A stretch of 20,433 bases of DNA from a virus. The notes beneath the pieces were generated by a model. That model saw only the letters and a program-made list of their open reading frames with translations. It ran no database searches and was not told the DNA's origin. The stretch lies in the IMG/VR virus record IMGVR_UViG_3300037223_000011, positions 1 to 20,433 of that record; one strand, written 5' to 3'. Positions 132-19,815 of the stretch are shown here, piece after piece. Positions within the stretch are counted from its first letter, which is position 1. Every line of letters starts with the position of its first letter. The translations under genes and the position numbers were made by a program.

Positions 132-2357
132 TCAATGCAGATAAGGCGCTGGCGTTGCCAGCGCAGAGAAGCCGTAGCGCGGGTTGGCCACCCCATCAAG
201 CCCGGCCGCAGTGAGGTCCGACGGCGCGTTGCGCGCGTAGACTCCCGGGCCGGTCAATGTTTGTCCGTACCAAGCACTAAACGAGGTATTACCCATGCCC
301 AGGTTGTTGTCGTCGATGGCCCACTCTATCCAACCGATCCCGTATGCCTCTGCTGCGCCTATGACCTGCTGGAAGCTGATGGTGGTCTCGGAACCCCCTG
401 AGCAACAAGCCGATGACGTGCCATCGGTGCCGGGACCAAACTCACCGAAGATGGTCTCCATGTTGTTGGCTGCGTCAAGCGCAGCGAACGTGGATGCCAT
501 TGTCAGGTAGCTGAGGTTGTTGTTGCCAGAATTGTTAGGCGACGCGGTGCTGTTCCCGTACACCTGTCCGCCGTTGGTATAGGCGCTGAAGCCGGAGCTG
601 TTGACAGTGAGTGTTACGGTCCACGCGCCCGATGATCCGCCGAGCGTCGGGCTGCCGGCCCACGTGCCGTTGAGCTGAGTCATGCCGTTGGCGCCAATAA
701 CGGTGTATCCCGTGGTGTAGGAGTCTATGCCGCCGTACGTCCACAACGGGTTGGTGGCGCCCGTGCTACTCATCGTCAGAATCGTATTGCCACCTGAGCT
801 TGTGACCCCGGTGATGTTGCCGACGAAGTTATTGGTCTGCCCGTAGAGGTGGATCGAGAAAAGGATGTTCTGCTCCGGGTCATCCGCCTCTAGCGTGGGG
901 CCGTATGCCTGCACATCAAACGGGTCTTGGCCAGAGCCGCCGGAGTCAATGATGATCGGGCACGTGTAGCCCGCGCCGCGCAGATTGCTGATAGCGGTGG
1001 CGTAGCTGGTTTCCCAGGTCGTTGAGTAAGACGGTCCCCACTCGTTTGCAATGTTGAGCGCCATCTCGCTCATGTACGGCGCGAAGCTCGACTCGTTAGC
1101 CGTCCACCAGCTCACGACGCTCGCGAGATCGGTCGGCGAGGTATCGCCACTCGTGCCGGTTCCACTGCATGTGGTGGAGTTTGTAGGGACATAGGCGACG
1201 GTGGCGATGGGGAAAATACCCGCTGCGATGTAGCTGGACATCAGGCTGGTGTAGTTAGAGACGGTGCACGCACCATCCCAGATGCGCACCGTGTTTGCTT
1301 GGGTGGGCGGCAATCCGGTGGCGGCACTGCTGTTGTAGTGGAGCTGGTTGTCCCCGCGGATCATGAACGGCTTGCCGTTCGGATCGTAGAGCTTGCCGCC
1401 GAGCTGAAAAAACCCGTAGGCCGTGTTGTAGGCCGGCCGACTCATGGTTCCGTTACTGGCGACGTTCATCAACCCTGTCGCGGTGGCTGTGTTGCTCGCG
1501 GAGTCCGTCACCTTGAGCGAGATCTCAACCGCGCCACTCAGAGTAGGCGTGCCGGATAGAAGGCAGCCGCTCGAAAGGGTCGCCCAAGCGGGCAGTCCGC
1601 TCGTGGCTGTGCAGACATATCCAGAGCCGCTACCGGCGAAGGCGTTGAGTTGCGTCTGATAGTAGCTGCCGGTGATGGCCGGCGGCAGACGAAGCAGCCC
1701 GTCGGTGTTGTCCACGCCCTGAAATACCAGCGCACCGCTGACGGTCAGCGCTTCCGTCTGCGTCGCGGTGGCGCCATTCTGGTCGGTCACCGTGACAGGG
1801 ATGGACTGGTTCGCGTTAGTCGCGCACATGACCGTGCCGTCGTAGCTCACTACACACGGCGAGCCGGCGGTCGTGGTGACCCAGTACGGCGTGAGTCCGC
1901 CGGATATTTTGAGACGGTAGGCGGTGTACCCGCCGCTCGGGCCGGTGATGCCCGTCGGGCTCAGAATGGCCAACGAGCCGCTGTTGGTCGGCGTAAACGT
2001 GAACTGTTTTTGCGCGGTGGCGCCAGTGTTGGTGTCCGTGACCTGATAGGTGACGGTCTCCTGCTCGACTATCTCGGGGGTGCCGCTGACCACGCAACTC
2101 GGCGTGATGTAGTTCCATATCCCGAAGTTCGGTTGCGCCGAGACCATCGAGCACGCATAGCTGCCGCTGCTGCCGGTGATGGATAGGGTCTGGGCCATCG
2201 TGGACCCGACGGCTGGCGCGGTGAGCGTTGCGGTTGAAATCTGCAACATGCTGCTGCCGCTGACACCCGAGCCGCCCCGGGCCATCCGCGCATCAACGGA
2301 AGTGGTCGTCAGTAGTACGAGAAAGAGGCCGAGCAGAATAGCGGGGATGCGGCGCAT
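132..2357 (-). CDS. Secreted GH5-like glycoside hydrolase with Ig-like domains
   Basis: 741 residues. The start is ATG at 2357, two bases after the upstream stop; an in-frame ATG at 2375 lies inside the previous gene and would spoil the signal peptide. Residues 1-24 look like a Sec signal (MRRIPAILLGLFLVLL, cleavage near SVDA-R). Three Ig-like beta domains follow at about 40-122, 129-205 and 210-299, each with two cysteines. A cellulase/mannanase-type GH5 region spans about 314-700: strand 1 NTVRIW (Arg358), acid/base in IANEWG (Asn438-Glu439), IHLYG (His503, Tyr505), nucleophile in FGEFG (Glu639), and GWIEW (676-680). A module at about 516-603 interrupts the barrel. By family knowledge it would cleave beta-1,4-glucan or mannan-type chains; the substrate is not known. 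It may act as a virion depolymerase or as a secreted enzyme made during infection. The GH5 call is strong; the role is inferred. Confidence 0.8.
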   Translation of the reverse strand: MRRIPAILLGLFLVLLTTTSVDARMARGGSGVSGSSMLQISTATLTAPAVGSTMAQTLSITGSSGSYACSMVSAQPNFGIWNYITPSCVVSGTPEIVEQETVTYQVTDTNTGATAQKQFTFTPTNSGSLAILSPTGITGPSGGYTAYRLKISGGLTPYWVTTTAGSPCVVSYDGTVMCATNANQSIPVTVTDQNGATATQTEALTVSGALVFQGVDNTDGLLRLPPAITGSYYQTQLNAFAGSGSGYVCTATSGLPAWATLSSGCLLSGTPTLSGAVEISLKVTDSASNTATATGLMNVASNGTMSRPAYNTAYGFFQLGGKLYDPNGKPFMIRGDNQLHYNSSAATGLPPTQANTVRIWDGACTVSNYTSLMSSYIAAGIFPIATVAYVPTNSTTCSGTGTSGDTSPTDLASVVSWWTANESSFAPYMSEMALNIANEWGPSYSTTWETSYATAISNLRGAGYTCPIIIDSGGSGQDPFDVQAYGPTLEADDPEQNILFSIHLYGQTNNFVGNITGVTSSGGNTILTMSSTGATNPLWTYGGIDSYTTGYTVIGANGMTQLNGTWAGSPTLGGSSGAWTVTLTVNSSGFSAYTNGGQVYGNSTASPNNSGNNNLSYLTMASTFAALDAANNMETIFGEFGPGTDGTSSACCSGGSETTISFQQVIGAAEAYGIGWIEWAIDDNNLGMGNTSFSAWYGQTLTGPGVYARNAPSDLTAAGLDGVANPRYGFSALATPAPYLH
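549..818 (-). other. Module inserted in the GH5-like domain (E1 FCCH-like repeat)
   Basis: This stretch encodes residues about 514-603 of the GH5-like protein, between the active-site IHLYG motif and the FGEFG nucleophile. It contains GMTQLNG, SGAWTVTLTVNSSGF and AYTNGG. This pattern recalls the short beta modules of phage fibres annotated as ubiquitin-activating enzyme E1 FCCH-like. The same pattern occurs in the 662-residue protein at 13019-13150. The family name rests on motif memory only. Confidence 0.5.
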
Positions 2358-2359
2358 GT

Positions 2360-3496
2360 CTACGCACCACCACACGGACCGAACGCGATGTGGTCATTGC
2401 TGGCCACTGTGCCGGATAGCGTCGCGCTGGTAGTCGAGTGGGAGGTCTGGTGCAGACTGTCCGCTGTCGTGGTCTCATCATCGGCGCTGCAGTGCCAACC
2501 GTTAGTCGCGGTCGGTAATGTGATCGTGACGGTAGATGCCCCGGTCGTGCCGGTGCACTGGAAAAACCCGATGGACGTTCCGGTGGTTCCCGTCTTGGTG
2601 ATGGCCGAGCACGCACCAGTCCCTGTGATTGAATACTGCGCGCCCGTATCGATGAGATAGGTAACGGTCGTGGAGGGGGCGTAGACGTGAGCCGTGGTGG
2701 TGGACAGCAGCGGCAGGTTGGCGGTCACCGTGCCCGCGCCATCTGTCACCGAGCCACTGGCGGAAGCAACCGTCTGGTTGCAGTCCAGCGTCGTGCCGTT
2801 GGATACGATCTCCCACGTGTCGCCCGCTGGGATGCCCGTTCCCGACACGCATCCGCCGCCTGAGTTTATCGTCGGCGTGGTGGAGACTGCCTCGGTGGAG
2901 GCTGAGTAGTTGACGATGGTTGCCGACATGCCGGCCGCGAATACAGTGGCGCTTATTGCTGGAATCGTGGCTGTGCCGCCGCCCGTGATGTTGGAGTAAA
3001 TCACGCCGCCCATGTCCGTCGAGGCCACGGTCGGAGATACGGTGACGGTGCGGCGCGGGACAGTAGTTCCAATGACCCCGCTGCTGAGCGAAATCGTTGA
3101 AGCGAGCTGCGCGCAGCCCATCACTGTGGTTGCTGAGTTGTCGAGCAGACACGGAGCCGTGGCGCCGACGACTGTAGTAGTGCCGGGGGTGACGCTGCCG
3201 CTGCTAGAGGTGTGGCAAGCGCCATCGGCGCCGAGGTACTGCACGCCACTGCATGTTGAGAACAGTGAGATTATATCGGTCGCGAGCGCGTTGCCGTGGC
3301 TGTAGAGGTTGGACGAGTTGCCAAACATCGAGAAAAGCGCCGTGATGTTGGCATTGTCTTTCTGTGCCCATGCGCGCGCGTTATCGCCGTTGCCGGTATT
3401 TGGTCCGGTGCCGATGTTGATAACCTGCTGCGCGGGGGGCTGCGCCACGGCGGCGAGCGGCAGGCACAGCAGCAGGATGGCCAGTAGTCGTTTCAT
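2360..3496 (-). CDS. Exported fibre-like beta-rich phage protein
   Basis: 378 residues, starting at ATG 3496 in an ATGA overlap with the upstream gene; the frame stays open further upstream, but only this start gives a clean signal sequence. Residues 1-18 (MKRLLAILLLCLPLAAVA, cleavage AVA-Q) look like a Sec signal. Residues 26-55 carry the pattern NIGTGPNTGNGDNARAW followed by NANITALF, a motif common near the N-terminus of phage tail-fibre and other virion-associated proteins. The rest is rich in Thr, Ser and Gly and looks all-beta. The end (ITLPTATNGWHCSADD, then SATLSGTV and IAFGPCGG) resembles C-terminal modules of phage fibre-like proteins. About ten cysteines are spread along the chain. 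It is probably a receptor-binding or surface protein. The signal peptide is odd for a virion part assembled in the cytoplasm. Confidence 0.7.
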   Translation of the reverse strand: MKRLLAILLLCLPLAAVAQPPAQQVINIGTGPNTGNGDNARAWAQKDNANITALFSMFGNSSNLYSHGNALATDIISLFSTCSGVQYLGADGACHTSSSGSVTPGTTTVVGATAPCLLDNSATTVMGCAQLASTISLSSGVIGTTVPRRTVTVSPTVASTDMGGVIYSNITGGGTATIPAISATVFAAGMSATIVNYSASTEAVSTTPTINSGGGCVSGTGIPAGDTWEIVSNGTTLDCNQTVASASGSVTDGAGTVTANLPLLSTTTAHVYAPSTTVTYLIDTGAQYSITGTGACSAITKTGTTGTSIGFFQCTGTTGASTVTITLPTATNGWHCSADDETTTADSLHQTSHSTTSATLSGTVASNDHIAFGPCGGA

Positions 3497-5850: not shown

Positions 5851-6915
5851 TCATGCCAGCATCGTCACGACTGCGAACCGGCGGAACCAAATCGCGCCGT
5901 AGCCGCCGGACCATCGCTTCTGGCGCCAGCTCGAAGTGTCAACAACCATGTTGCCGGCCATCAGCTTGGTGGAGAACGCGCACTCGACAGTGCGCTGCCC
6001 GTCGATCTCCTCGGCAATCAGCATCACAAGCTCGCCCGCTGTGTTGTACGGGGTGCCGTACTCCGGGGCCGTCTCAAGACGCAGGTTCGGGAAATATTGC
6101 TCGATCAGCGCCTTCACCGTCATGGTGTTGTAGGGCGTGATCGCCATGAGCGCGGCGGACTGCTTCGGGCTCATCGCGAGGACCATTTTCGAGTCCATGC
6201 GGATCGTGCCATCCGACTGCGCCTGCAGCTGGATGTACATGCGCACGATGTCCTGATAGATCGTCGCGGCGGTCTGGGATCCGCCACCCTGCAGCCAGGA
6301 GTAAGTCGCGGTCAGTGATGGCGGGAGATACGGGTCATTGATGAGCCCGTAATTCTGCAGCCCAGCCACGCCGTAGAAGTAAACGTTGTTCAGCGCCTTG
6401 TTCAGCGTGAATACGTTGGACTCCTGCTGCTTCGCCGCCCAGTCGATCTTCGCGAGCCCCATGCGCCCGACTTCCAACTGTCCGTACTGCAGGAACGACT
6501 GAAAGAGGTAGTTCTGGCGCGTCGGGAAGTTGGCATTGACCGTGGTGCTGCCGGCCTGTGAGTAGTCGCCATAGGACGCGACCTCGCCCGACGGCTCGAT
6601 GGTTGCGAACATCGCCGAGGCGGCAAGCCAGTCACCCTTCATGGACTCGCCCGCGATGACCGCGGCCATCATGGGGGCGAAGATGATGGGGATAAGCTTG
6701 GGGTCAAACCAGTTGGCGAGGAACCACGGAATGCCTCCCGACGCCGTGGTGATGGTGGGCGACTGCACATCGTCCATCGCCATCGCCTGATCGGCGGTCA
6801 TGAGCTGCATGTGATCCATGCCCATGAGGTGAGCATCGCGCTTCACCCACTGCATGACCTCCGCTGCCCGGCCGTCTCGGATGGCTTTTTCGATCTTGGC
6901 GACTGTCATGTTCAT
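5851..6915 (-). CDS. Major capsid protein (DUF2184 family)
   Basis: 354 residues, ATG 6915; a second ATG two codons in (6909) is equally possible, since neither has a clear Shine-Dalgarno. After a helical, Met-rich N-terminus (about 1-50) comes ASGGIPWFLANWFDPKLI (58-75), typical of DUF2184 capsid proteins. The segment GDYSQAGSTTVNANFPTRQNY looks like the capsid E-loop region. Also visible are a long helix-like part at LAKIDWAAKQQESNVFTLNKAL and a C-terminal QKRWSGGYGAIWFRRFAVVTM. Length and order fit an HK97-fold major capsid protein of this family. It is flanked by two related cement-type genes and follows the protease-scaffold gene, the normal order for such a module. The family call is confident. 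Confidence 0.9.
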   Translation of the reverse strand: MNMTVAKIEKAIRDGRAAEVMQWVKRDAHLMGMDHMQLMTADQAMAMDDVQSPTITTASGGIPWFLANWFDPKLIPIIFAPMMAAVIAGESMKGDWLAASAMFATIEPSGEVASYGDYSQAGSTTVNANFPTRQNYLFQSFLQYGQLEVGRMGLAKIDWAAKQQESNVFTLNKALNNVYFYGVAGLQNYGLINDPYLPPSLTATYSWLQGGGSQTAATIYQDIVRMYIQLQAQSDGTIRMDSKMVLAMSPKQSAALMAITPYNTMTVKALIEQYFPNLRLETAPEYGTPYNTAGELVMLIAEEIDGQRTVECAFSTKLMAGNMVVDTSSWRQKRWSGGYGAIWFRRFAVVTMLA

Positions 6916-6918
6916 GGG

Positions 6919-7899
6919 TTACACCATCCAACTGCTGATCTTGCCTGCCTGCCCTACTGCGGCAGAGAAGGTGTTTGTCGAGGTGACCGTGTACTGCGCG
7001 TTGGTCGTGAGGTACGTTCCGGTGCTGCCCGCGGTGCCCGTGAGCTGCTCCAAAATCGAGACGTTGGACGTGGCCGGCAACCCGCCGCCGCCCGTCGCCG
7101 CGAGCCACTGCCCCGCAGCGAGCACGCCAGAGGCAATCGCCGTCACCGTGAGGATGCCGAACGCGTTGCCCGCCGCCGGCGCCGCAAGCGATGCCGTGAA
7201 CAAGGGGTTCGCCGGTATGGTCTGCATGCAGACGAACAGGGTCGGGGTCTGCGTGATGCCGTAGGCCGTGAACGCGGTCGTCGCCACGTTGGGGATCACC
7301 GCCCCGTCGTAGTTGGCAATGGTCCACGGCGATGCGCCGCCAGTCACGAAGTACGTACCAGCAGGAATTCCCGCCATGACCAGCACCATGCCGGCCGTGA
7401 TTGAGCCCGTGAGGGTGCCGATACCAGTTAGCGTGTTGCCGCCAGAGGTCGTGGCGCTCGTATCCGAGGCCGTGACCGAGGAGTTGTTGGCTGCGCCCGA
7501 GAGCCCGCCGCCCAGCGCGTTGGCGTACACATACTGCGCCGCGGTGCATCCGGCAGAGAACAGACCCCAGAACTCGCCCTGGCTCATGCCCACAACGGGG
7601 TAGCCGCCCGGGATCAACAGTCCGTTGAATCCGAGGAAACTGGTGATGAGCGCATCGCCACCACGTCGCACAAGCCCCATGAAGGAGTTGGCCTGGTAGT
7701 AGCTGGACGCGATGCCGGTTACCGGGTTGAACCATGCGAACGTGCCGACCGTGACGCCACCGGGAGAGGCCACATACTGGCCCGGGCCACCGATGACATT
7801 CGAGCGGATGTTGGCTCCCGCGAAGTCACCCGGAATGCCGGGGGACGGCATACGGACGACAGTGGTTTGGAAGCCGTCGGGACTGGTCACTGCTGGCAT
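6919..7899 (-). CDS. Long Gp24-like capsid decoration protein with extra modules
   Basis: 326 residues from ATG 7899, preceded by a strong GGAGG that overlaps the end of the protease gene. Residues 1-135 match the cement-type protein downstream of the capsid gene (GGVTVGTFAWFNPVTG at 47-62 and GYPVVGMSQGEFWGLFSAG at 99-117). Two modules follow: about 140-215 (TLTGIGTLTGSITAGM, then AGIPAGTYFVTGG) and about 246-313 (FGILTVTAIASGVLAAGQ, then GSTGTYLTTNAQYTV). The second is a beta module often seen in phage surface proteins. So the protein may be a capsid cement with surface-exposed additions. The end, AGQAGKISSWMV-like, is short and unfamiliar. The virion surface role is inferred. Confidence 0.65.
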   Translation of the reverse strand: MPAVTSPDGFQTTVVRMPSPGIPGDFAGANIRSNVIGGPGQYVASPGGVTVGTFAWFNPVTGIASSYYQANSFMGLVRRGGDALITSFLGFNGLLIPGGYPVVGMSQGEFWGLFSAGCTAAQYVYANALGGGLSGAANNSSVTASDTSATTSGGNTLTGIGTLTGSITAGMVLVMAGIPAGTYFVTGGASPWTIANYDGAVIPNVATTAFTAYGITQTPTLFVCMQTIPANPLFTASLAAPAAGNAFGILTVTAIASGVLAAGQWLAATGGGGLPATSNVSILEQLTGTAGSTGTYLTTNAQYTVTSTNTFSAAVGQAGKISSWMV

Positions 7900-7905
7900 G
7901 ATCGA

Positions 7906-9216
7906 TTACCTCCGGCCCGCACGAACGATGCCGAATTCTTCATAGAAGTCGGTTGAATTGGAACTGGTGTCCATCGCCAGCGATGCGTGTCGAGTGGCCT
8001 TGCGCGTCGCGCTCTGATGGACCTCGAACAGCGTCGCGTAGGTCTCAGGGCTGACGCCCTTGAGATTGATGCCGAGGTGGTCAAGCGCGAACTTGTACAC
8101 ATCATCGGCCGAGTCGAGCGCCATTGATATCTGGCCCACGACTGGCTTGACTGCTTCGCGAGCGGCGGCGAGCGCCTGCATCTCGCGGCGCATGTCGTCG
8201 CGCGCCTTGCGCACGGCGGAGTCGAGTTCGTCCTTGGTCACGGAGTCCTTGCCCTTGGGATTGAAGTCATCCTCATGCTCCTCGGCATCCTTGGCGGCCT
8301 TGGAGTCCCCATCCTCGTCGTCATCATCCTTGGCGGACTTCGCGTCCTTGGATTTGGCCTTTTTCTCCTCCTCCTCGGATTCGTCTTCGGCCTCTTCCTC
8401 GTCGTCCTTCGCTTTCGCGTCCTTCGCCTTTTTGTCCTTGGCCTTTTTGTCGCGGGCGCGCTCGTAGCATTCCTCTTTCTCGTCCGCGGACATGGAGTCC
8501 TTGCCGTGCTCGGTTTTCCACTCGTCCTCGGCGTCCTTCTTTTCGGCTTCGTCGAGCGTGGTGACGGACTTGTCAGGGGTCTCGCCCAGCGCCGCATCAA
8601 GCGCGAGGAGGTTCGCACCTGGGCGCAGGTAGGGGATTAGCCGCTGGATCAAAGTGAGGTTGCTCATATCGCGTAGGCCCTTTGGTAGTTCATCAGCTAC
8701 GTGAACGTCCGGGCCAGCGCGGCCCTCCGAAACAATCGCGACATGGTTGCCGCGAATGTTGATCATCTTGCCATCGTATGCCTGCCCGTCCAAGTTCCCG
8801 GGAGTCATGATCGCATCGTAACGGTAAGCGCTCGACAGCTCGCGCTTCTCCTCCGACTCGATCAGATCGATAGCTTCCTGAGTGGTGACCAGAATCGGCC
8901 GCGCAATCAGATACGGGTGCTCGTAGGTCACCTTGCCTATCGTGCCGACCACTGCTTCCTGATGCGGGTTTTGCGCATCGATAGCTATGTGCCGAACCAG
9001 CAGAGGCTTGCCCTCGAAGCTCGACGCCGCCTCGCGCAACGCATCCGCATCGCGATACAGACGATAGACTCTGGATGGGTCGAGCCCGAGTTTTTCCCAG
9101 TTGGGAATCTCCGCCCCGCGATAGGGACAGACATTCGCCTTGCTGATGCGGCATTCCGCGACCTTCAAGTGCCCGTCGAGGTCCTTGGAGCGGGATGTTG
9201 AGGTACCCATTGGCAT
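7906..9216 (-). CDS. Prohead protease-scaffold fusion (DUF2213)
   Basis: 436 residues. Residues 1-180 match DUF2213, a prohead maturation protease family: ISKANVCPYRGAEIP (24-38), a helical middle, ELSSAYRYDA (126-135) and IRGNHVAIVSEGRAGPDV (154-171). Ser128 or Ser129 and His158 are the candidate catalytic pair. Residues about 222-330 are almost entirely Lys, Asp, Glu and Ala, then a helical part (331-357) and a C-terminal domain that lacks low complexity. This fits a protease fused to a scaffold, as known in several tailed phages, where the enzyme cuts scaffold and capsid during head maturation. The start at 9216 or 9210 lacks an obvious ribosome site. An internal ATG at 8664 (MSNLTLIQ) might give a separate scaffold. 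It lies directly before the cement and capsid genes. Confidence 0.82.
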   Translation of the reverse strand: MPMGTSTSRSKDLDGHLKVAECRISKANVCPYRGAEIPNWEKLGLDPSRVYRLYRDADALREAASSFEGKPLLVRHIAIDAQNPHQEAVVGTIGKVTYEHPYLIARPILVTTQEAIDLIESEEKRELSSAYRYDAIMTPGNLDGQAYDGKMINIRGNHVAIVSEGRAGPDVHVADELPKGLRDMSNLTLIQRLIPYLRPGANLLALDAALGETPDKSVTTLDEAEKKDAEDEWKTEHGKDSMSADEKEECYERARDKKAKDKKAKDAKAKDDEEEAEDESEEEEKKAKSKDAKSAKDDDDEDGDSKAAKDAEEHEDDFNPKGKDSVTKDELDSAVRKARDDMRREMQALAAAREAVKPVVGQISMALDSADDVYKFALDHLGINLKGVSPETYATLFEVHQSATRKATRHASLAMDTSSNSTDFYEEFGIVRAGRR

Positions 9217-9423: not shown

Positions 9424-9731
9424 TAATAACCGACGGGGAGGAGCCCTTGCGCCTCCGGGGCAATATCAACATTTGCCGTGGTCACCTGCACGTCAAACAG
9501 GTAACAGACGCCGGGTATCCCTCCGGAGACAGGCTGCAGGACCATCGTGTTGGTTGAATCGAGCGCCGCGGCGCCGTTGAGGATCGAGCTTGGGCTTGGG
9601 TCTACACCGGAGGCAACGGTCACCGTGAGGCTGGTGATCCCCGTGAGGAGGTTGCCGAGCGTGAGCTGATTGGCGAAATCGAAGATCAGCACCGTCTTGT
9701 AGGCGGGCAGTTTGTTGGGGAATTTAAGCAT
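9423..9731 (-). CDS. Hypothetical virion-type protein, 102 residues
   Basis: 102 residues from ATG 9731, which overlaps the stop of the repeat-protein gene by eight bases and has a GGAG nine bases upstream. Longer in-frame starts (to 9812) would run through the upstream gene. After LPAYKTVLIFDFANQLTLGNLL (8-29) the chain looks like one small beta-sandwich: SLTVTVASG (34-42), then ILNGAAALDSTNTMVLQPVSGG (50-71) and YLFDVQVTTANV (77-88). Phage proteins with this arrangement of beta strands occur near head and tail genes, often as short structural or adhesion modules. I do not recognise a named family. It closes the fibre-like block and may be a surface or fibre accessory protein. Confidence 0.6.
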   Translation of the reverse strand: MLKFPNKLPAYKTVLIFDFANQLTLGNLLTGITSLTVTVASGVDPSPSSILNGAAALDSTNTMVLQPVSGGIPGVCYLFDVQVTTANVDIAPEAQGLLPVGY

Positions 9732-11088
9732 TGTCGTCAGCTCCAACATACACGACATAGTTGAGCGGCGGCAGCACCACCTCAAACCGAGGGTCGCCAA
9801 CAATGGGCACAACCGGAACCAGCAGGTATAGCAGCAGATTGCGCTGCCCCGTATCTTGAGTCTGTGGAGCCTTGGCCCTCAAGCTAGGCGTCAGATCCAC
9901 CGCAAGTAGTGGTAGCAGGTTGGGTGCTCGAAGCACAACCAAGTCATTTGACTGCTGCGTATCCTGCGGGATCGCTCGACGCAGCACCACCGGCCAATCA
10001 CGCAGCGCGAACGGCGGAGATGCTTGTGCTGTCAACGTGCTCGTCAGCAAGTTCGGCGTCGCATCGTCCTGCGGTCGCGCGCCAACGCGAGGTTGACCGA
10101 GATCGACGCCGATGAACGGGAGAGGTACCGGCGCCAGCAGGAACGTGAGCAAATTACGCTGCGCTGTGTCCTGCGTCTGCGGCGCTCGCGGCCTCAGATT
10201 CGGCGTCAGGTCTACTGAAAAGAACGGCAGCAGAGTGGGCGCGTTGAGTACGATCAGGCCATTCGGCTGCTGCGTATCCTGCGTCGAGACGCCCTTGCTT
10301 GAGCGTCGCTGCGTCAGATCCGGCGGCATCGCCGGCAACGGTATCGGAGCGAGCAGGTACGGCAGTAGGTTGCGCTGCCCCGTATCTTGCGCACCGCGGG
10401 CCTTCACCGGCTGCGCGTAATCAGGTATCGCGATGAACGGCTTTGGCGCGACCAGCGTTTGAAATACGATGACGTTTGCCGGGATGTCAGGCGGTGCTGC
10501 CCTCGCCTTTGCGTAGCTCGATACCACGGCAGCGCGCTGCTTCGCGGTCGTTGTGATCTGTGACGCCGGCAGCAAGGTCAGTGGGATGGGCTGCTGGTCA
10601 ACTACCAACCATCGGCGCGGACCCGGGTATGAGCCATCATCGCCGGCTGCCGGGAACGTCAGGTATTGGTAAATGGCTACGTTGGCCGCATTCGTATCCT
10701 GCGGAGCCGCAGCTCGCGCCCGCAGGCTCGGCGTGAAGTCCACCGGGACAGTGGGCGCCCCCACCTGACCGGGCGGCAGTAGCTCTATCAGCAAGTTGGC
10801 CTGACCCGTGTGCTGCGCACCGCGAGTCTTTACTGGCTGGAAAGTCAGATCCGGTCCATTCATGCCAATCGGTAAAAGCTGCGCCGGAGGCTTCACTATC
10901 AGCAGTGAGCGCTGCGCGTCTGTGTGTTGAGCAGCTACGGCACGGCGTGGTTGGGCACTGTCCGCGTGCGACACCGATGGCAACGCGACAATCGCCAGCG
11001 TCGAGAGCAGCAGATTCGGCAGGACATCAACTGCCTGCGCCCGCTTGGCCGGGTAGCTGCTAAAGACTGGTGCGCGAAAAATGGCCAT
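9724..11088 (-). CDS. Repeat protein of about twelve 36-residue units, unknown function
   Basis: 454 residues, ATG start, no clear ribosome site. Nearly the whole chain is a tandem repeat with consensus roughly RNLLxxLLAPxPLPxxxVDLTPxLRxRAPQTQDTxQ. The anchor triplet QDT or QHT (or a worn form of it) falls near residues 18, 54, 92, 130, 200, 234, 270, 306, 340, 375 and 411; one anchor between 130 and 200 is missing. Spacing is 34-38 residues, and a three-unit block of 105 residues seems to have duplicated near the C-terminus. No signal peptide, membrane segment or catalytic motif is seen. The end (residues 430-454) leaves the pattern. Proline is frequent, so a regular extended or beta-solenoid-like rod is possible. 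It lies between fibre-type genes and capsid genes, so a virion surface rod is my guess. I recognise no family. Confidence 0.75.
   Translation of the reverse strand: MAIFRAPVFSSYPAKRAQAVDVLPNLLLSTLAIVALPSVSHADSAQPRRAVAAQHTDAQRSLLIVKPPAQLLPIGMNGPDLTFQPVKTRGAQHTGQANLLIELLPPGQVGAPTVPVDFTPSLRARAAAPQDTNAANVAIYQYLTFPAAGDDGSYPGPRRWLVVDQQPIPLTLLPASQITTTAKQRAAVVSSYAKARAAPPDIPANVIVFQTLVAPKPFIAIPDYAQPVKARGAQDTGQRNLLPYLLAPIPLPAMPPDLTQRRSSKGVSTQDTQQPNGLIVLNAPTLLPFFSVDLTPNLRPRAPQTQDTAQRNLLTFLLAPVPLPFIGVDLGQPRVGARPQDDATPNLLTSTLTAQASPPFALRDWPVVLRRAIPQDTQQSNDLVVLRAPNLLPLLAVDLTPSLRAKAPQTQDTGQRNLLLYLLVPVVPIVGDPRFEVVLPPLNYVVYVGADDNA
9741..9744 (-). promoter_or_regulatory. Ribosome binding site for the 102-residue protein
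   Basis: GGAG on the minus strand, nine bases before ATG 9731 and inside the end of the repeat-protein gene. It favours MLKFPNK as the start over longer in-frame starts. Confidence 0.55.
9830..11040 (-). repeat. Degenerate tandem repeat with period of about 105-108 bases
   Basis: This is the DNA level of the protein repeat. CTGCTGCGTATCCTGCG on the plus strand occurs at 9952 and again at 10267, 315 bases on, which equals three repeat units. GCGCTGCCCCGTATCTTG occurs at 9841 and 10372, 531 bases on, five units. The copies are alike but not identical, so the array is old or under selection at the protein level. Confidence 0.75.
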
Positions 11089-11091
11089 GTG

Positions 11092-11838
11092 CTACAGCCA
11101 GGCTTGGCCCATGAGCTGCGGGGAGCTGGCGCCAGCGAAGCTCGCGATTATCGCAAACGGGGCGTTAGCGCCGGTCCACGACCATAGCGCGGAGCTATCC
11201 TCAACAGAGGAAGTTATCTTGTAACCCGCGCTATACGCACCGCCGAAGTTGCCGCCGTTGTTGTCATAGAACCCAAAATTGGTAAATGCACCACCTACGC
11301 TGTTGTTGCTGGGTGGCGTAGTCAAGCCGATGGTTGACCCACCCGAGTAATTCATCGTAGATACAAAGGCCACCACCAGTTCACTGGCGTTGGCGTTGTT
11401 GCTCGGCAACGTCGCAGCAAGTGTCGTTGCAGTACCGGAGTTATTGTAGTTAGTCGCCGACTGGTCAATGGTTGCGATCCCAGATGCCTCAAGCGAGTTG
11501 AGGACAGGGGCAGCAGTGCCAGACACACCGCCAAAGCTAACCGTAATCGTGAGGGTGCCGCTGCCAGTCGCTGTGACTGATGAGCACCACCACAACTCTA
11601 CCCCACCATAATAGTTCCCAGGATCGTAGAGGTACGTGATACGCGAGTAAGTGTTACCCGCACTGTCGGCAACTCCGGTGACCACGGGCGTGCTTCCAAT
11701 TGCACCGCCTGACCTAAGTACTGTTGCCACAATCAGCGAGTTGCCCAACACTGGCTGGCTCAGTGTGATTGTGGATGTATAGGGAAGGGTGCCGGCGAAG
11801 CCGCTGTTCACATTAGTTTGTACGACGCTGATAGACAT
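11092..11838 (-). CDS. Beta-sandwich phage structural protein
   Basis: 248 residues, ATG one base after the stop of the 662-residue gene, stop three bases before the repeat-protein gene. The pattern is that of a beta-sandwich common in phage and bacterial surface proteins: LGNSLIVATVLRSGG (31-45), VTGVADSAGNTYSRI (53-67), ELWWCSSVTATGSGTLTITVSFGG, APVLNSLEAS, then ELVVAFVSTMNYSGG (152-166) and a closing WTGANAPFAIIASFAGA. The two halves look like facing sheets of one domain. No signal peptide is present, unlike the gene before it. It probably forms part of a fibre or spike. I know similar hypothetical proteins in phages but no named function. Confidence 0.65.
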   Translation of the reverse strand: MSISVVQTNVNSGFAGTLPYTSTITLSQPVLGNSLIVATVLRSGGAIGSTPVVTGVADSAGNTYSRITYLYDPGNYYGGVELWWCSSVTATGSGTLTITVSFGGVSGTAAPVLNSLEASGIATIDQSATNYNNSGTATTLAATLPSNNANASELVVAFVSTMNYSGGSTIGLTTPPSNNSVGGAFTNFGFYDNNGGNFGGAYSAGYKITSSVEDSSALWSWTGANAPFAIIASFAGASSPQLMGQAWL

Positions 11839-11839
11839 G

Positions 11840-13828
11840 CTAGTTCACCGTTGCGCCGTATTTATCGAAGTAGAGCGTCATGAGATCGCCGCCGCTGAGT
11901 AGAAGCTCAGGCTTGTATATGTCGTAACGGTTGCTACCGAAGGTCACGGGGCTGCCGGATGTGCCCGCAGAAACTATGGTCGATCCGTTCAGGTTGAATA
12001 ATCCATACTGGCCGGTGCCGTTCGTCGTGTTCGGGGATTCAAAGCCTGGCTGCGTAGCACCGAAATACGTCGATGAGGGTTCGCCCTGCCCTGTGATCTT
12101 TCCAGCGTTGTCCGGCCCTGTGCCGGTGAGGATCGTGGTCACGTAAGCCTGCGCGTCGTAGCCCGGGGTATTGCCTGTCCACGACGGGCCACCGCCGCTA
12201 CCGGGGCAACCAGTGATAGCTACCGTGCCGCCACTCTCTGCGGCCGTCGTCATCGCGCATGGATAGCCGAATCCGGAGACACTGGTGCTGTAGAACATCA
12301 AATATTCGTTAGCGGCGATATTGGCCATGTTGCCGGATGTGGTCGTCTGAATGGTCAGCGTCGAGCCATCGCTGGATGCGGTGCCCTGCCACTCCGAGAC
12401 AACATGCCCGCTCCACGTGCCCGACCCGAGCCCGAGATTCAGGAAGGGAACCTTGAGCGAACACCACGAACCAGAAGCGCATCCAGTGCCGTAGGAGCTG
12501 GTGGTGCCGTTGAGTATGGTTATTGAGCGATTCGAGTAGATGTCGCTCGTTGTGTACGCTGCACCGCCCGGGCGGGAGTGCACGGTGAAGCCGATATTCT
12601 GCCCATTGGATGTCAGGCGAACATCCAGAACGGCATAGCTGTACCCGCCCCAGTTCGCGTCATATCCAGGGGACTCAGGGGCCGCTGTGAACTGCTGGAT
12701 GTAAGCCCATCCAGGCGTGCTCATCGCGTAGGTGTCTGGGCTTTCAACGACCTGAGTCTGCGGGCACGCTTCCGCACCACCACCGCCGCCGACATTTGGT
12801 GAGGGGTCGGACCAAATTCCGTCTGAGCTGTAGCTGGCTGTCGGCGCCGTGCTCAGGTAGTAAGTGCCCGTACCCCCGTTTCCAGTTGTACCGGCATACG
12901 GCGTTCCACCCGTTACGAAGTACTCGATATAAGGGTTGCCGGGTCCGCCAGTCGCGGCCGATGACGCGATGGCTCCATCGCCGTCAGTGATGCCGCCGTT
13001 CGGCTGAACAGGCGGCGCGAGCGTGCCGCCACTCGTGTAGGTGCTGAACGCGCTGGAATTGATGTTGACTGTCGCAGTCCACGCGCCGCTAGATCCTCCG
13101 GTGGCAGTCACAGTACCGAACAGGCCGTTGATCTGCGTCATGCCGCTGACGCTTTGAAAGTACAACACATTCCCGTTATTGAACGGGTTGTAGGCCTGTA
13201 CAAGACTTGTAGTGACTACTGCAGACGCGGCCTTAGTGATACCGGATATATTCCAGATGGCAACCGAAGTGACCGTGAAGACGTTCTGGCCGCTCGTGAA
13301 AGTGGCCAGATAGTTGGTGTTCATGTAACCGCCGAAACCACCTCCAGAGTAGTTTCCGCAGCTATTGTTGGCGCCGTTGTTGTAGATCCAGTTAGCCGGG
13401 TAGGCAATGGCGCTCAACCCTGAGCCATTATTTGCATAGACGCCTATGACATTAGCTGTCTCCTGGCATGGCGTATTAACGCAGTTCAAACCAGTGATGG
13501 TCAGAGTGTAGTGACACGCCGAGCCGCTGCAGGCACTTCCCGAAGTAGGGTCAGCAACCTGAGAGCCGTTGTCGTAAATTGGATAGTCAGTCGGAGACCC
13601 GGACGCGCTCGCCGTCCAGTAAATGTCCATCGTATTGGTCGTGCAACCAGTGCCAGTGCCGGCGTTCTGACAACTGGTGCTGCCCTGATTCTCGTATGAG
13701 GCAGTGACGGCGGACGGCGCGCCGCCGGAGGCGACGATTGGCGCCGGCATGATGCCGTGCCCAGCCAGCGCGACAGAGCAGAGCAGCGCCGCGAACGCGG
13801 CGTGGAATACGGTTCGCAGCGCCTTCAA
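11840..13828 (-). CDS. Exported fibre-like protein with FN3-like and FCCH-like modules
   Basis: 662 residues with a TTG start (13828), supported by GGGAG eight bases upstream. Residues 1-22 (MKALRTVFHAAFAALLCSVALA, cleavage ALA-G) look like a Sec signal. Residues about 37-150 resemble a fibronectin-III-like domain (PSAVTASYEN, NTMDIYWTAS, YTLTITGL). Residues 228-270 carry GMTQING, SGAWTATVNI and YTSGG, the same module as in the GH5-like protein; 294-330 has GGTGTYYLST. The C-terminal half, about 355-662, is beta-rich with no motif I recognise. Cysteines pair closely at 53/62, 100/105, 116/121, 450/456 and 524/541, which would suit disulfides outside the cytoplasm. It could be a head-attached fibre, an adhesin-like spike or a secreted protein. 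The placement among head genes and the signal peptide together are unusual. Confidence 0.68.
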   Translation of the reverse strand: MKALRTVFHAAFAALLCSVALAGHGIMPAPIVASGGAPSAVTASYENQGSTSCQNAGTGTGCTTNTMDIYWTASASGSPTDYPIYDNGSQVADPTSGSACSGSACHYTLTITGLNCVNTPCQETANVIGVYANNGSGLSAIAYPANWIYNNGANNSCGNYSGGGFGGYMNTNYLATFTSGQNVFTVTSVAIWNISGITKAASAVVTTSLVQAYNPFNNGNVLYFQSVSGMTQINGLFGTVTATGGSSGAWTATVNINSSAFSTYTSGGTLAPPVQPNGGITDGDGAIASSAATGGPGNPYIEYFVTGGTPYAGTTGNGGTGTYYLSTAPTASYSSDGIWSDPSPNVGGGGGAEACPQTQVVESPDTYAMSTPGWAYIQQFTAAPESPGYDANWGGYSYAVLDVRLTSNGQNIGFTVHSRPGGAAYTTSDIYSNRSITILNGTTSSYGTGCASGSWCSLKVPFLNLGLGSGTWSGHVVSEWQGTASSDGSTLTIQTTTSGNMANIAANEYLMFYSTSVSGFGYPCAMTTAAESGGTVAITGCPGSGGGPSWTGNTPGYDAQAYVTTILTGTGPDNAGKITGQGEPSSTYFGATQPGFESPNTTNGTGQYGLFNLNGSTIVSAGTSGSPVTFGSNRYDIYKPELLLSGGDLMTLYFDKYGATVN
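13019..13150 (-). other. FCCH-like module in the 662-residue protein
   Basis: Encodes residues about 227-270, with GMTQING, GGSSGAWTATVNI and FSTYTSGG. The corresponding stretch at 558-695 encodes GMTQLNG, GGSSGAWTVTLTV and FSAYTNGG. The two are also alike at the DNA level around CGCAGTCCACGCGCC, which points to a shared mobile module. Confidence 0.55.
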
Positions 13829-13843: not shown

Positions 13844-14137
13844 CTACAGCATCAGGAGCGGGGAGATCGCACTACATTCGGCTCCCCGTTCCGTCAGCTT
13901 GTCGGCCAGCATGGCGCTCAACGCCTCGTACTCGGCCGGGTAGCGTGCCTGCACGCGCTGCAGGAACGTCACGTAGTCATGATCCTCGGCGACCTTCTCG
14001 GCGCGCCGCGACACAATCAAAGCCATCAGGGTCGCATCGTGCACCGGGCCATCTAGCGGAAAACCAATCGCGAGCGCCTCGGAACCACTCCGAAGCAACT
14101 CGCGATCAGCGATCCCATCGAACCCGAGGAAGTTCAC
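13844..14137 (-). CDS. Hypothetical phage protein, 97 residues
   Basis: 97 residues with a GTG start at 14137, four bases after a GAGG that overlaps the stop of the upstream gene. The chain is mixed and mostly helical: a first half with LLRSGSEALAIGFPLDGPVHDATLMAL, then a charged helix VSRRAEKVAEDHDYV, and YPAEYEALSAMLADKL (66-81) near the end. I see no metal-binding, membrane or catalytic motif. I recognise no family. It sits between a putative surface protein and the fibre-like block. A chaperone or assembly role for the fibre genes is possible, but only from position. Confidence 0.5.
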   Translation of the reverse strand: MNFLGFDGIADRELLRSGSEALAIGFPLDGPVHDATLMALIVSRRAEKVAEDHDYVTFLQRVQARYPAEYEALSAMLADKLTERGAECSAISPLLML

Positions 14138-14143
14138 CCCGCC

Positions 14144-14653
14144 TCAGTACGGCTCATAGATCATGTGCCCGCCGATTGCGCCGGCCGTGGTGCCGGTGAA
14201 CGCGGACAGTGACAGCTCCCCGAGTGATGCCGTGTTGCCCACGAGGGTGATCTCCTCGTCGCGGTCACGGGCCAGCCAGCGCGCCATGCCGCCGTATGCG
14301 TTGAACGGCAACACCAGCAAGCGCCCGAGAGTCGAGGAGCGCTGCGGGATCGTGGTCGCTGAGTTTCCGACGACCGGAGGTGCAGCGAGTGCTGCGGTGG
14401 CCGCGTCAAGCGCCTGGTCGATAGCGCCGCCGGCAACCACTGTTCCGCCGACGGTCGAGTCTCGGCCGAGCACCATGATCTGCGGCTGGCTCGTTGAGGC
14501 CGACTGGCCGCCCAGGAAAACCTCTAGGAGCGCGATCTTCTGGGTGGCCGAGCCGCCCTGAATGAGGCCCATGTAGGTTGTGTTGGCGAGGTTCGTTGTG
14601 TCGGCAGTCGCCGCCGTGGTCACGGTCGCGGTACCGAGGGATCGTTTAGCCAT
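14144..14653 (-). CDS. Putative virion surface / decoration protein
   Basis: 169 residues, ATG 14653 with GGAG nine bases upstream. The chain is rich in Ala, Thr and Gly and looks largely beta: KRSLGTATVTTAATADTTNLANTTYMGLIQGG (3-34), KIALLEVFLGGQ (39-50), PQIMVLGRDS (57-66), then LLVLPFNAYGGMARWLARD (111-129) and NTASLGELSLSAFTG (139-153). I recall hypothetical phage proteins with this same layout next to portal and head genes in proteobacterial phages, probably virion surface proteins. No enzymatic motif is seen. A decoration or minor capsid role is inferred from composition and place, not shown. Confidence 0.6.
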   Translation of the reverse strand: MAKRSLGTATVTTAATADTTNLANTTYMGLIQGGSATQKIALLEVFLGGQSASTSQPQIMVLGRDSTVGGTVVAGGAIDQALDAATAALAAPPVVGNSATTIPQRSSTLGRLLVLPFNAYGGMARWLARDRDEEITLVGNTASLGELSLSAFTGTTAGAIGGHMIYEPY

Positions 14654-14668
14654 TGATAAAAACTCCTA

Positions 14669-15031
14669 TTACGGTAAAAGAATCCGTGGGACATCCACGG
14701 TATCGAGCGACTTGCCTTTGTCCGCCGCTTCGGAGACTTCCTCTATCACGAAGCGCATCGGTTTGCAGGCTCCGCCCGCAGAAACCTGGGCGGCTTTGCA
14801 CGGATCGCAGATGTAGTGGTCACACGATTTGCACCACGCCCGCTCGCGCGTCCGCCACGGATTCTTGATGAGCTGCTGGCAGCAGTGGCTACAGGTGTAG
14901 GTCGCGAGCTCGTGGCGCCCACGGCCTAGCTCCGGTGCAAGACCCAAGCTGATGAGTAGCTCGGCGGGCACGCCGACGCCGGCATCGATCTCCAAATAAT
15001 TCTCATCGTTCAACTTGCTGTGAACGGACAC
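14669..15031 (-). CDS. Cysteine-rich zinc-finger protein
   Basis: 120 residues from GTG 15031, with GGGAG nine bases upstream; a longer frame up to 15139 lies inside the previous gene and looks unlikely. The middle carries three CxxC pairs: Cys47/Cys50 (CSHC, with Cys51 next to it), Cys67/Cys70 (CKSC) and Cys75/Cys78 (CDPC), with His72 between the last two. The pattern CSHCCQQ...RAWCKSCDHYICDPC is that of a compact double zinc knuckle or treble-clef-like domain. Similar small proteins occur among head genes of proteobacterial phages, with unknown role. It may bind DNA or a partner during packaging or head assembly. The helical C-terminal end (VIEEVSEAADKGKSL) is ordinary. Confidence 0.65.
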   Translation of the reverse strand: MSVHSKLNDENYLEIDAGVGVPAELLISLGLAPELGRGRHELATYTCSHCCQQLIKNPWRTRERAWCKSCDHYICDPCKAAQVSAGGACKPMRFVIEEVSEAADKGKSLDTVDVPRILLP

Positions 15032-15326: not shown

Positions 15327-15330
15327 CTCC
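15327..15330 (-). promoter_or_regulatory. Ribosome binding site fixing the start at 15321
   Basis: GGAG on the minus strand, five bases before ATG 15321. It overlaps the stop of the MuF-like gene and selects MSPEQPH as the start. Confidence 0.65.
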
Positions 15331-16127
15331 TACTGCAGCGCCGGGATAATAGCGCGGCTTGTGCACCGACAGTTAATTTCAGTTCCGGGCCATATGTTTT
15401 TCTTGACCGCCGGGTCGTACATGCCGGCCTTTATGACGTAGCGTTTTCCGTTCATGGCGACGTGCGTCGGCCGCGGAACCTTGCCGGCATGGGAGTGCAT
15501 CCAGACTGCCTCCTTGATGCCGAGCTCGGAGCGCCGCTGCTCCTCCATGACCGCCTTAGCCTTGCTGCTTTGGTCGCGGGCGATGAACGCGGCGCGCTTG
15601 AAGGACACCCCATAGGCGCGCTGGATGCCGGATGTGAGGGCGCCGAGCTTGCCGCCGGTCATCACCGCCTGCCACACGGAGGACTCGACGTCCTTGAGAA
15701 ACTGCTGCGGAATCGACTTGATGAGATTCACATTCTCAGCGATGACTGCGCGGTAGACCTGCGCCATGCCGGCGGTGGGCTCGAAGGCAACCGTAAAGCC
15801 CGCCTCCTTGAGTCGCCGTTTGAACATGCCGTCTAGGTTCCGCCTGTGCTCATTGGCGAAGGCGGTCGCGATATCGTCGCTGGCATTGTTCAGCCGGCGA
15901 ATCCAGCGCTTACCCCATCGGCGCATAGCATCGCGCAGCGCTGCGACCGGGCTCTCATCCTGCGCGCCTACGCCTATCTCGATGGGGCGGGCCTTGGCGG
16001 CGGCCTTGATGTGCAGCAGCATGGACTTTGCCATCGCCGTGATGAGCGCCTCCAGCCGGCGGCGATAGGCCATCTCCAGTCCTGCATTGGTGCGGATGGC
16101 CCGGAGGGTAGCTGGCTTGCTAGGCAC
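15330..16127 (-). CDS. MuF-like minor head morphogenesis protein
   Basis: 265 residues, GTG 16127 overlapping the portal stop by eight bases; an internal ATG at residue 19 is possible. The N-terminal two thirds are helical and basic (RRWGKRWIRRLNNASDDIATAF at 69-90). The C-terminal domain is typical of the phage Mu gpF / SPP1 gp7 family: FIARDQSSKA (181-190), EAVWMHSHAGKVPRPTHVAMNGK (206-228), and WPGTEINCRC (246-255). Such proteins bind the portal, are needed for head assembly and are injected or retained near the portal. The gene directly after portal is the standard place. No toxin or ADP-ribosylase domain is fused to the end, as occurs in some MuF proteins. Confidence 0.88.
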   Translation of the reverse strand: MPSKPATLRAIRTNAGLEMAYRRRLEALITAMAKSMLLHIKAAAKARPIEIGVGAQDESPVAALRDAMRRWGKRWIRRLNNASDDIATAFANEHRRNLDGMFKRRLKEAGFTVAFEPTAGMAQVYRAVIAENVNLIKSIPQQFLKDVESSVWQAVMTGGKLGALTSGIQRAYGVSFKRAAFIARDQSSKAKAVMEEQRRSELGIKEAVWMHSHAGKVPRPTHVAMNGKRYVIKAGMYDPAVKKNIWPGTEINCRCTSRAIIPALQ

Positions 16128-17583
16128 TGATGCGGACTTCTTCCTCGACGCCCTCGCTCTCCAAGTCCGGGGGCTCGATCACCTTGTCGACGTCAATGGA
16201 ATTGAAGCCAGAGTCGGGGTCGGACGCGAGATGGTCGCGCGCCTCATGGCCATCGATGATGCCGCTATCTACTGCAGCGACCAGCGTTTCCATGGTGGCC
16301 TTGCGCACCTCGGCAACTTCTGAGCCGGCGACCTCCTTCAGCGGCTTGAACTCGAAAGTGATGTCCGGGTCAATCTTGCCGTTGAGGTCTAGCTGGACGA
16401 CCTTGAGGATGATTTCAAGTGGCGGCCGATAGAGTTGCTCCTGCATCGAGTGCACCCAGTTGTGCCACACCTCGATCTCGCCTTCGGACGTAGCGTTCAG
16501 CCCAGCGGGCGAGACGCCCGTCATGATTATCAACGGCTGATGCGTCGGATAGGCCATGTGCTCTAGGGCCTGCCCCTGCAGCTCGCCCAAGCCGGTCAGG
16601 GACGCCTGCACCTGAGATAGCAGTTCGTCGTCCTTGTCGTGCAGGAAAATGCCCTGGTTGTCGCGATTTTTGGTGAACAGCTTGAGCCGGTCGAGCAATG
16701 CCTGGTAGGCCGCAGGATCGCCGCCCTGCAGTACGGTCGCCATGTCGGTGGCGAGCGTGATGATTGAGAAGTTGCTGATGAGCCGGCTGACACTATCGAC
16801 CGTCTTGAGCCAGCGCTGCACATACGGGTCGATAAGTTGGGTAAGCGACAGACCGCCGAAGTTGTAGGCGGGCTTGATGATGTCGGGGACTTCGCGCGAG
16901 ATGAATTTCAACAGCCGCGAGGCGTGCACCGATTGACCAAGGACAACCCATTGCTCAGGGTTATAGAACGTGGGGATCGTGGGGTCGTTTGAGTTCCACG
17001 TGATAGGCGTGATCCACATAGGCTCGATGGTGTTGAAGCCTTCGAGCTGGCCCTGCTCAATACCGCCCTCCTTGACTGCCAGCGGCAACTTGCGGATGGC
17101 GCCCTCGTCGCCGCGGAGCTTGATGTACACCATGCCGAGGCCATAAAAGCCGTCGTGCTCGGTGACCTTGCGGAACAGCAGTTGAACGCCGTGCTGCTCA
17201 AACGCCTTCTCGATCTGCGCGATGAGGTCGGACTTGTCGCCGTCGCCCTTGCTCGTAATCTTGATCCACTCGCGCGTCATCTCCTTCGCCGTCGTCTCGA
17301 CGGGCTGCCGGTATTCGGAGCGCTGAGAGAGCTCGGCGAGGTACGGGTAGCCCGGAAAGTAGAGACCGAAAGCGAGCTGGCCGGCGACGGTCTGCCCGCC
17401 CACGCCGCCGAGATAGCCTGCATATGGGTAGGTCGATCCATCGTCGAATGCCATCGCGGGGCGCTTGAACGGCAGTTGCGGCAGCGACAACTGGCGCCTG
17501 GATTGGTCGGCCGGCGGCCCGGGAGTCGAGGCGACGATGTGCCCGAGCATGGCTGGCGCTGACTTGGGTTTCGGCTTGGTCAC
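16120..17583 (-). CDS. Portal protein (DUF1073)
   Basis: 487 residues, GTG start in a GTGA overlap with the previous gene. An N-terminal Pro-rich lead (1-45) is followed by the portal body: ELSQRSEYRQPVETTAKEMTREWI (84-107), HDGFYGLGMVYIKL (143-156), QWVVLGQSVHASRLLKF (211-227), the clip/stem-like YNFGGLSLTQLIDPYVQRW, and SPAGLNATSEGEIEVW (358-373), a signature of DUF1073 portals. The C-terminus is acidic (SEGVEEEVRIS). The protein forms the dodecameric ring at one capsid vertex through which the terminase packages DNA. Its neighbours, large terminase upstream and MuF-like downstream, are as expected. The call is firm. Confidence 0.9.
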   Translation of the reverse strand: MTKPKPKSAPAMLGHIVASTPGPPADQSRRQLSLPQLPFKRPAMAFDDGSTYPYAGYLGGVGGQTVAGQLAFGLYFPGYPYLAELSQRSEYRQPVETTAKEMTREWIKITSKGDGDKSDLIAQIEKAFEQHGVQLLFRKVTEHDGFYGLGMVYIKLRGDEGAIRKLPLAVKEGGIEQGQLEGFNTIEPMWITPITWNSNDPTIPTFYNPEQWVVLGQSVHASRLLKFISREVPDIIKPAYNFGGLSLTQLIDPYVQRWLKTVDSVSRLISNFSIITLATDMATVLQGGDPAAYQALLDRLKLFTKNRDNQGIFLHDKDDELLSQVQASLTGLGELQGQALEHMAYPTHQPLIIMTGVSPAGLNATSEGEIEVWHNWVHSMQEQLYRPPLEIILKVVQLDLNGKIDPDITFEFKPLKEVAGSEVAEVRKATMETLVAAVDSGIIDGHEARDHLASDPDSGFNSIDVDKVIEPPDLESEGVEEEVRISA

Positions 17584-19399: not shown

Positions 19400-19815
19400 T
19401 TGCGCGTGGCTACGCGCTCCAGCGTTCCGGACACATCCTCGCCCATAATCTCAAGGTAGGCCTTTGCCGCAGATTCTTCGCTGATATCCAGCGGCAGCAC
19501 ATTCGTGCGGATCGGCCCGCCATCGGCGCCCGTGTGCTCGACGCGCTGCACTTCGCGCCAACCCATTTGAGATTTGGTCCAGTAGATCGCCGCAGAGACG
19601 TTGCCCGCCATGGCCTGCTTGAACAGCGTGCCGCCAATCGCTGCATTCGCCTTGGCTTTGCCGAGATCCAGCTCGGCCCGATAGTGGCGATATAGCGTGT
19701 GCAATGAGCCGAGCCCGAGCAGGATCACGATATGGTCGTGCGGCACGCCGACCATCGCCCAGTTTTCGGCTTTCTTGCGCTGATCTTCGGTGGGTTTATG
19801 TTGAGGTTTGGCCAT
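19396..19815 (-). CDS. terS: Terminase small subunit
   Basis: 139 residues from ATG 19815, overlapping the end of the methyltransferase gene by 20 bases. An N-terminal helix-turn-helix-like region (EDQRKKAENWAMVGVPHDHIVILLGLGSLHTLYRHY, 10-45) is followed by helical KAKANAAIGGTLFKQAMAGNVSAAIYWTKSQMGW (53-86), a pattern of small terminases that ends in a typical KSQMGWRE. The C-terminal part (about 88-139) would bind the large subunit or the portal. It recognises the packaging site on phage DNA and loads the large subunit. Its place before the large subunit gene, coupled by ATGA, is standard. Confidence 0.85.
   Translation of the reverse strand: MAKPQHKPTEDQRKKAENWAMVGVPHDHIVILLGLGSLHTLYRHYRAELDLGKAKANAAIGGTLFKQAMAGNVSAAIYWTKSQMGWREVQRVEHTGADGGPIRTNVLPLDISEESAAKAYLEIMGEDVSGTLERVATRK

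Follow-up and report, generated by a model that had tools for sequence, protein, structure and literature searches.

T4 Hoc is described as a string of folded Ig domains with a C-terminal capsid-binding domain (PMC10385173). Phage 7-7-1, a myophage of a soil bacterium, bears flexible capsid fibres, and its linker protein 1 is described as rather unstructured and in contact with the decoration protein (PMC12796354). In crAssphage, the BACON-domain protein forms a tandem carbohydrate-associated array whose repeat number changes (PMC6949934).

The window analyzed here, the whole stretch of DNA under study, is a viral record of 20,433 bases with a Bcep781-like head module that includes terminase, portal, Mu F-like, maturation protease, and major capsid genes. 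These head genes flank a gene for a tandem-repeat protein, in keeping with the phage head region proposed in the original prediction. The strand of the gene, which had not been named, is the minus strand. The features of interest are the following.

5851-6915, minus strand: major capsid protein of the Bcep781-like type (phrog_264).
6919-7899, minus strand: minor head protein of the Bcep781-like type.
7906-9216, minus strand: maturation protease of the Bcep781-like type.
9724-11088, minus strand (ATG at 11088): tandem-repeat protein of 454 amino acids, with about 11-12 units of about 36 residues.
11092-11838, minus strand: beta-rich protein of 248 amino acids, a putative passenger adhesin of the family whose domains are fused N-terminally to the repeats elsewhere.
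11095-11115, minus strand: tag codons (LMGQAWL), immediately ahead of the stop codon of the 248-aa protein, from the tag statistics and the collection scan.
11840-13828, minus strand: beta-rich protein of 662 amino acids in the variable (passenger) slot, with no C-terminal tag and a weak E1_FCCH match below the cut-off.
13844-14137, minus strand: protein of 97 amino acids inside the cassette with no assigned function (open reading frame list, PHROGs search).
14144-14653, minus strand: putative jellyroll protein of 169 amino acids (MAKRS... to ...MIYEPY), a constant part, with homologues in more than 100 loci.
14669-15025 (start codon provisional), minus strand: Zn-ribbon-like protein (CSHC...CKSCDHYICDPC), a constant part.
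15330-16127, minus strand: Mu F-like protein, a head gene.
16120-17583, minus strand: portal, a head gene.

Elsewhere in the window, a 747-aa protein (132-2375, minus strand) carries a cellulase (GH5) domain (PF00150, E 4.8e-9) and is a possible virion glycanase, and a DNA methylase (19796-20425, minus strand; PF01555, E 1e-19) adjoins the terminase genes. The maturation protease contains a 15-base tandem repeat (8404-8451) that encodes a Lys/Asp-rich tract.

The repeat gene starts 3 bases past the stop of the gene for the 248-aa protein. Its open reading frame lies exactly where it was predicted, and the expected architecture of about twelve repeats of about 36 residues with a QDT anchor has been confirmed. 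QDT-type anchors are found at residues 53, 91, 128, 198, 233, 269, 305, 338, 373, and 410, with a spacing of 33-38 residues and a single gap of 70 residues, the length of two degenerate units, giving about 11-12 slots once the N-terminal PNLLLSTL unit is counted. The unit consensus in the window protein is P[FL]xxVDLTPxxRxRAPQTQDTxQxNLLxxLLAP. In a self-comparison of the 454-aa protein, the best off-diagonal segments score 191, 112, and 100 at lags of 105, 36, and 141 residues, respectively. The maximum in 100 shuffles of the protein is 57, and the internal repetition is therefore far above chance.

A three-unit block had been thought to be copied near the C-terminus. A copy is indeed present at lag 105, but the shared block covers ~58 residues, that is, two units within a three-unit period, and is 62% identical. 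The identity by codon position is 69% at the first, 76% at the second, and 43% at the third position. Since the third positions are much less alike than the first two, the copy is old and has been kept by purifying selection; it is not a recent duplication.

The N-terminal stretch LPNLLLSTLAIVALPSVSHA is signal-like, yet judged by relatives it is the first repeat unit; the relative L039 has APNLLLTTLAVVVAAAPF in its place. The protein starts with MAIFRAPVF, so that an RAPVF motif occupies residues 5-9. Among the family members with a short N-terminus, 20 of 57 have an RxPLF-like motif at position 4, 6, or 7, whereas random windows give 1 on average.

Searches with the window protein gave no family in Pfam at E<=1, no match in PHROGs at E<=0.1, no match in the PDB by protein or by profile, and no match by tblastn among 50,697 phage records. 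The view that the repeat belongs to no known family thus still stands. Peptide patterns of the protein found nothing among viral contigs, nor did a consensus built by hand or patterns taken from alignments give any match, and a DWPNP-type consensus found nothing among cultured phages. No paper naming the repeat motif, or the tag motif described below, was found in the open-access literature. A 111-column profile without an assigned function, phrog_35284, weakly matches residues 297-339 of the relative L007 (E 3e-4) and does not match the window protein.

The first relatives have been reached only via synteny. The 169-aa gene led to the locus L007; there, the slot that precedes the capsid gene encodes a 599-aa protein with PFAQTDWPNP units. 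Patterns made from such units retrieved 61 viral loci and 3 MAG loci, the 169-aa gene as a query retrieved 80 loci, and an iterated unit profile found repeat proteins in 117 loci (contigs), 94 of them distinct. For the repeats of these 94, neither Pfam nor PHROGs nor the PDB gave a confident match. The repeats have a median spacing of 33 residues, ranging from ~27 to 45 within proteins, and proline makes up 13% of the residues. The median number of detected units is 8 and the highest is 32, which agrees with the earlier suggestion that the repeat number has changed over time. The copies are conserved at the protein level, with third codon positions near random. In three relatives (L058, 4713-8822; L064; L075), the C-terminus consists of a second tandem repeat of ~10 residues (DSQTPNWTPV).

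Sequence comparison places the window protein, as a divergent member, in a large and undescribed “PFxQTDWPNP”-type repeat family of uncultured phages, the tandem units of which measure about 30-38 residues. One of its units reads PFALRDWP, near the family core PFxxxD[WFL]xP, and its units carry an NLL arm. At E 1e-3, the window protein goes undetected by the unit HMM. Without composition correction, the unit profile gives the window protein 24 bits, where shuffles reach 13 at most, but with the HMMER composition correction it does not separate the protein from its shuffles, and the protein has therefore been counted as divergent. Its membership has been settled by direct BLASTP to intermediates. 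The best matches include L153 (E 5e-8, 52 bits), L044 (4e-6), L122 (5e-6), and L039, while the best of 200 shuffles of the window protein reaches 35 bits. Among ~7,000 open reading frames, 34 match at E<1, and every one of these belongs to the family.

On the evidence of gene order, the repeat gene closes what is a conserved cassette: a Zn-ribbon gene, a jellyroll gene, genes for variable beta-rich or lectin-like proteins, and the repeat gene. The window carries all of these in that order, and related cassettes also contain the open frame. Across loci, the repeat gene follows the jellyroll gene directly or beyond the variable genes, and in 118 of 130 loci the jellyroll gene is immediately preceded by the Zn-ribbon gene. 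Where at least 5 kb of downstream sequence is available, the repeat family occurs in 34 of the 46 loci fetched by the jellyroll gene alone; no repeat protein was detected in the other 12, some of which encode divergent proline-rich repeats. Conversely, both the jellyroll and the Zn-ribbon genes are present in 27 of the 28 loci fetched by the repeat that have at least 5 kb upstream. The Zn-ribbon motif of the relatives (VDHRASPG...CxHC...CxxCxxYICDxC, also CDxYICDxC) is conserved in nearly all cassettes.

The 169-aa protein has been read as a jellyroll from its predicted fold. The AlphaFold model, built from 24 aligned sequences, is all beta, with a pLDDT of 89.9 and a pTM of 0.85. In Foldseek searches, the model matches uncharacterized phage proteins (best E 3.5e-6) and, weakly, PDB entries that include picornavirus capsid jellyrolls and C1q-like proteins (best E 2.4e-3). 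Queries with this protein, the jellyroll of L018, and the Zn-ribbon of L013 gave no match in the phage collection.

We propose that the cassette is mobile. It occurs alongside at least three unrelated families of capsid protein and three of terminase. The capsid families beside it are phrog_264 in the window, phrog_1357 in L007, and phrog_267 in L017, and the terminase families are phrog_2 in the window, phrog_38 in L013, and phrog_9 in L080. Other backbones include a P22-type head closure in L009 and a tail sheath in L083. In Orisa03, a cultured phage of the Bcep781-like type, the cassette slot contains small genes only. One Ignavibacteria MAG carries the cassette, and among 296 related genomes the jellyroll occurs in this same MAG only. 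Host assignment failed, the two alphaproteobacterial matches being weak and partial. In three loci, genes of the GIY-YIG type lie between the jellyroll and the repeat genes (L153, 8656-9438; L122, 8614-9540; L154, 8552-9187). That of L153 is confirmed by Pfam, and the pattern looks as if homing endonucleases target the cassette.

The variable slot holds different proteins in different loci, including Laminin_G_3 lectin-like domains, a tail-spike-like protein (L015), and an Ig-like domain family. Domains of the Ig-like family are also fused N-terminal to the repeats in many relatives. At least 140 residues precede the first detected unit in 29 distinct members, not all of them with a domain of this family. 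The 248-aa neighbor of the window repeat protein matches L099 by phmmer (E 2.8e-8) and the fused N-terminal domains by hhalign (prob 96, E 2.3e-9). Laminin_G_3 occurs both in repeat proteins (E 2e-10) and in tagged passengers. PASTA domains, which usually bind peptidoglycan, are found above the Pfam cut-off at the C-terminus of the repeat proteins of L061 (250-1539) and L086 (12459-13676); E-values of 1.6e-12 and 1.2e-6 were obtained for PASTA in repeat proteins.

Otherwise unrelated cassette proteins share a C-terminal tag with the consensus L-M-[GASP]-Q-[IAV]-[CW]-[LM]-stop (peptide form ASSPQLMGQAWL). The pattern L-[MFLQ]-[GASP]-Q-[IAV]-x-x-stop ends 44 of 7,063 distinct open reading frames, compared with 0.36 expected from the internal frequency of the motif. 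The codons for Leu, Gly/Ala/Ser, Gln, and Ile vary synonymously, so the tag is conserved as protein and not as a nucleotide signal. The possibility that the LMGQ peptide is a by-product of a ribosome-binding site was dropped on the same two grounds. When the last 12 residues were cut from 56 proteins ending in a less strict version of the tag, a few of which would be chance cases, the proteins formed 34 groups at E<1e-3. The viral collection was also scanned blind with a DNA pattern for the tag, which returned 10 contigs. Seven have an in-frame tag, all in a cassette, one of the seven having been read only as the truncated L166; no tagged open reading frame was found in the remaining three. 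The repeat unit and the tag occur together in a few small proteins (L012, 5130-5354; L164, 6217-6414; L068, 4632-5855). Bare single repeat units are rare in the passengers, and the repeat motif is thus no general docking tag.

The AlphaFold monomer model of the repeat protein shows no secondary structure, with a pLDDT of 42 and a pTM of 0.17, from an alignment of 18 relatives that is thin and in which the repeats align poorly, so that a trimeric fold could be missed. On the other hand, the jellyroll model indicates that modest alignments are enough for a folded protein. The difference between the two models favors a flexible tether over a rigid rod or tape measure, and the self-contained rod or solenoid suggested at first does not agree with the monomer model. 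A sequence that selection preserves although its chain does not fold by itself would resemble short linear binding motifs.

Based on these observations, we suggest that the repeat protein is a long flexible multivalent virion tether that displays adhesins, its units docking to a virion protein, for which the jellyroll is the best candidate; we give this reading an even chance of being correct. Attachment to the virion, one of the roles foreseen in the original prediction, would still be the likeliest for this protein. Each ~36-residue unit, built around a conserved PFxxxDWP or VDLTP core and an NLLxxTL arm, would serve as a short linear motif for docking, the rest of the chain being unfolded. 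A partner encoded in the cassette is more probable than the capsid protein, since the capsid families differ while the cassette is constant. The string would present lectin- or Ig-like domains at the phage surface, either fused to it or docked through the LMGQ[IA][CW][LM]-stop tag, and the displayed domains may bind glycans of the host cell or of the environment.

The main rival to this reading, which we consider rather unlikely, is a self-assembling head or neck fibre in which three chains wind into a shaft, one turn per unit, with terminal knobs, and which folds only as a trimer. The period, with its median of 33 residues, would suit such a shaft, the RxPLF-like N-terminal motif could be its anchor, and C-terminal domains such as PASTA are knob-like. 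The head-region location and the flexible capsid fibres of phage 7-7-1, the proteins of which have not been identified (PMC12796354), are also consistent with a fibre. However, the spacing ranges freely within proteins, unlike that of known triple beta-spiral shafts, the monomer model contains neither strand nor helix, and the proline content of the family is high.

In a second, improbable alternative, the chain would stretch across the capsid, with every unit gripping a single capsid or decoration subunit and thereby stabilizing the head. This alternative draws on the position of the gene inside the head operon of the window, the disorder in the model, and the likeness to linker protein 1 of phage 7-7-1 (PMC12796354). 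The same family, however, is found beside unrelated capsid proteins, its repeat number goes from a few to 32 with no lattice rule, its members carry fused adhesin, PASTA, and lectin domains, and Bcep781-like cultured relatives do not have the cassette. Still less probable is a non-virion protein, such as a late factor, secreted by the infected cell or located in its periplasm, whose co-expression with the head genes would be coincidental; disorder is common in such factors too, but the gene lies within the structural operons of several phage types, a tail-spike-like protein occupies the same slot in L015, and no clear signal peptide is present. The measuring device of the original prediction, or a scaffold, with the number of repeats fixing a dimension of the head or the tail, would fit the head-region location and the variation in repeat number between phages but is very improbable, because the family occurs alike with T7-type portal/connector, P22-type head closure, and tail-sheath genes, has no helices in the model, bears fused surface domains, and belongs to an accessory cassette absent from related cultured phages. 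A tail tape measure protein, long, alpha-helical, and encoded among tail genes, has been rejected since the repeat gene lies among head genes and its model has no helix.

Within the tether reading, a further proposal concerns the tag and is more tentative; we regard it as possible, though doubtful. Unrelated lectin, Ig-like, beta-helix-like, and glycine-rich proteins may share a 7-residue docking tag that is read by a constant part (the jellyroll, the Zn-ribbon, or the repeat string), in a plug-and-play display in which the disordered scaffold sets the valency and adhesins are exchanged while the tail fibres remain unchanged. If the tag and the string form such a general docking system, they would explain how adhesion domains are swapped independently of the tails, and the tag would be a short, fold-independent display tag for phage particles. 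The cassette is found in more than 100 environmental viral contigs and in none of the 50,697 phage records by tblastn. Being frequent in the former and undetected in the latter, it is apparently a common part of uncultured virions that has so far not been described.

By comparison, the systems closest in their working would be T4 Hoc and the linker and capsid fibres of phage 7-7-1, and the tests used here place the window protein in neither group. The crAssphage BACON units are folded beta-sandwich domains, whereas the units of the window are ~36 residues long and unfolded in the model. Flexibility and lack of structure would be shared with the 7-7-1 proteins, but no sequence link has emerged, and no cassette protein has been found in cultured phages. 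In nebulin and in the DPW/NPF strings of endocytic proteins, regular repeats of ~35 residues or short aromatic motifs within a disordered chain bind a repeated partner. These proteins are eukaryotic and unrelated in sequence, and the analogy is one of working only. Hoc is a string of folded Ig domains, while the window protein has no Pfam domain and would be a chain of proline-rich repeats, unfolded in the model, with a separate jellyroll and tagged passengers. In outline, both would be modular, accessory surface chains with Ig-like, variable, adhesive domains, encoded by a head-associated accessory gene.
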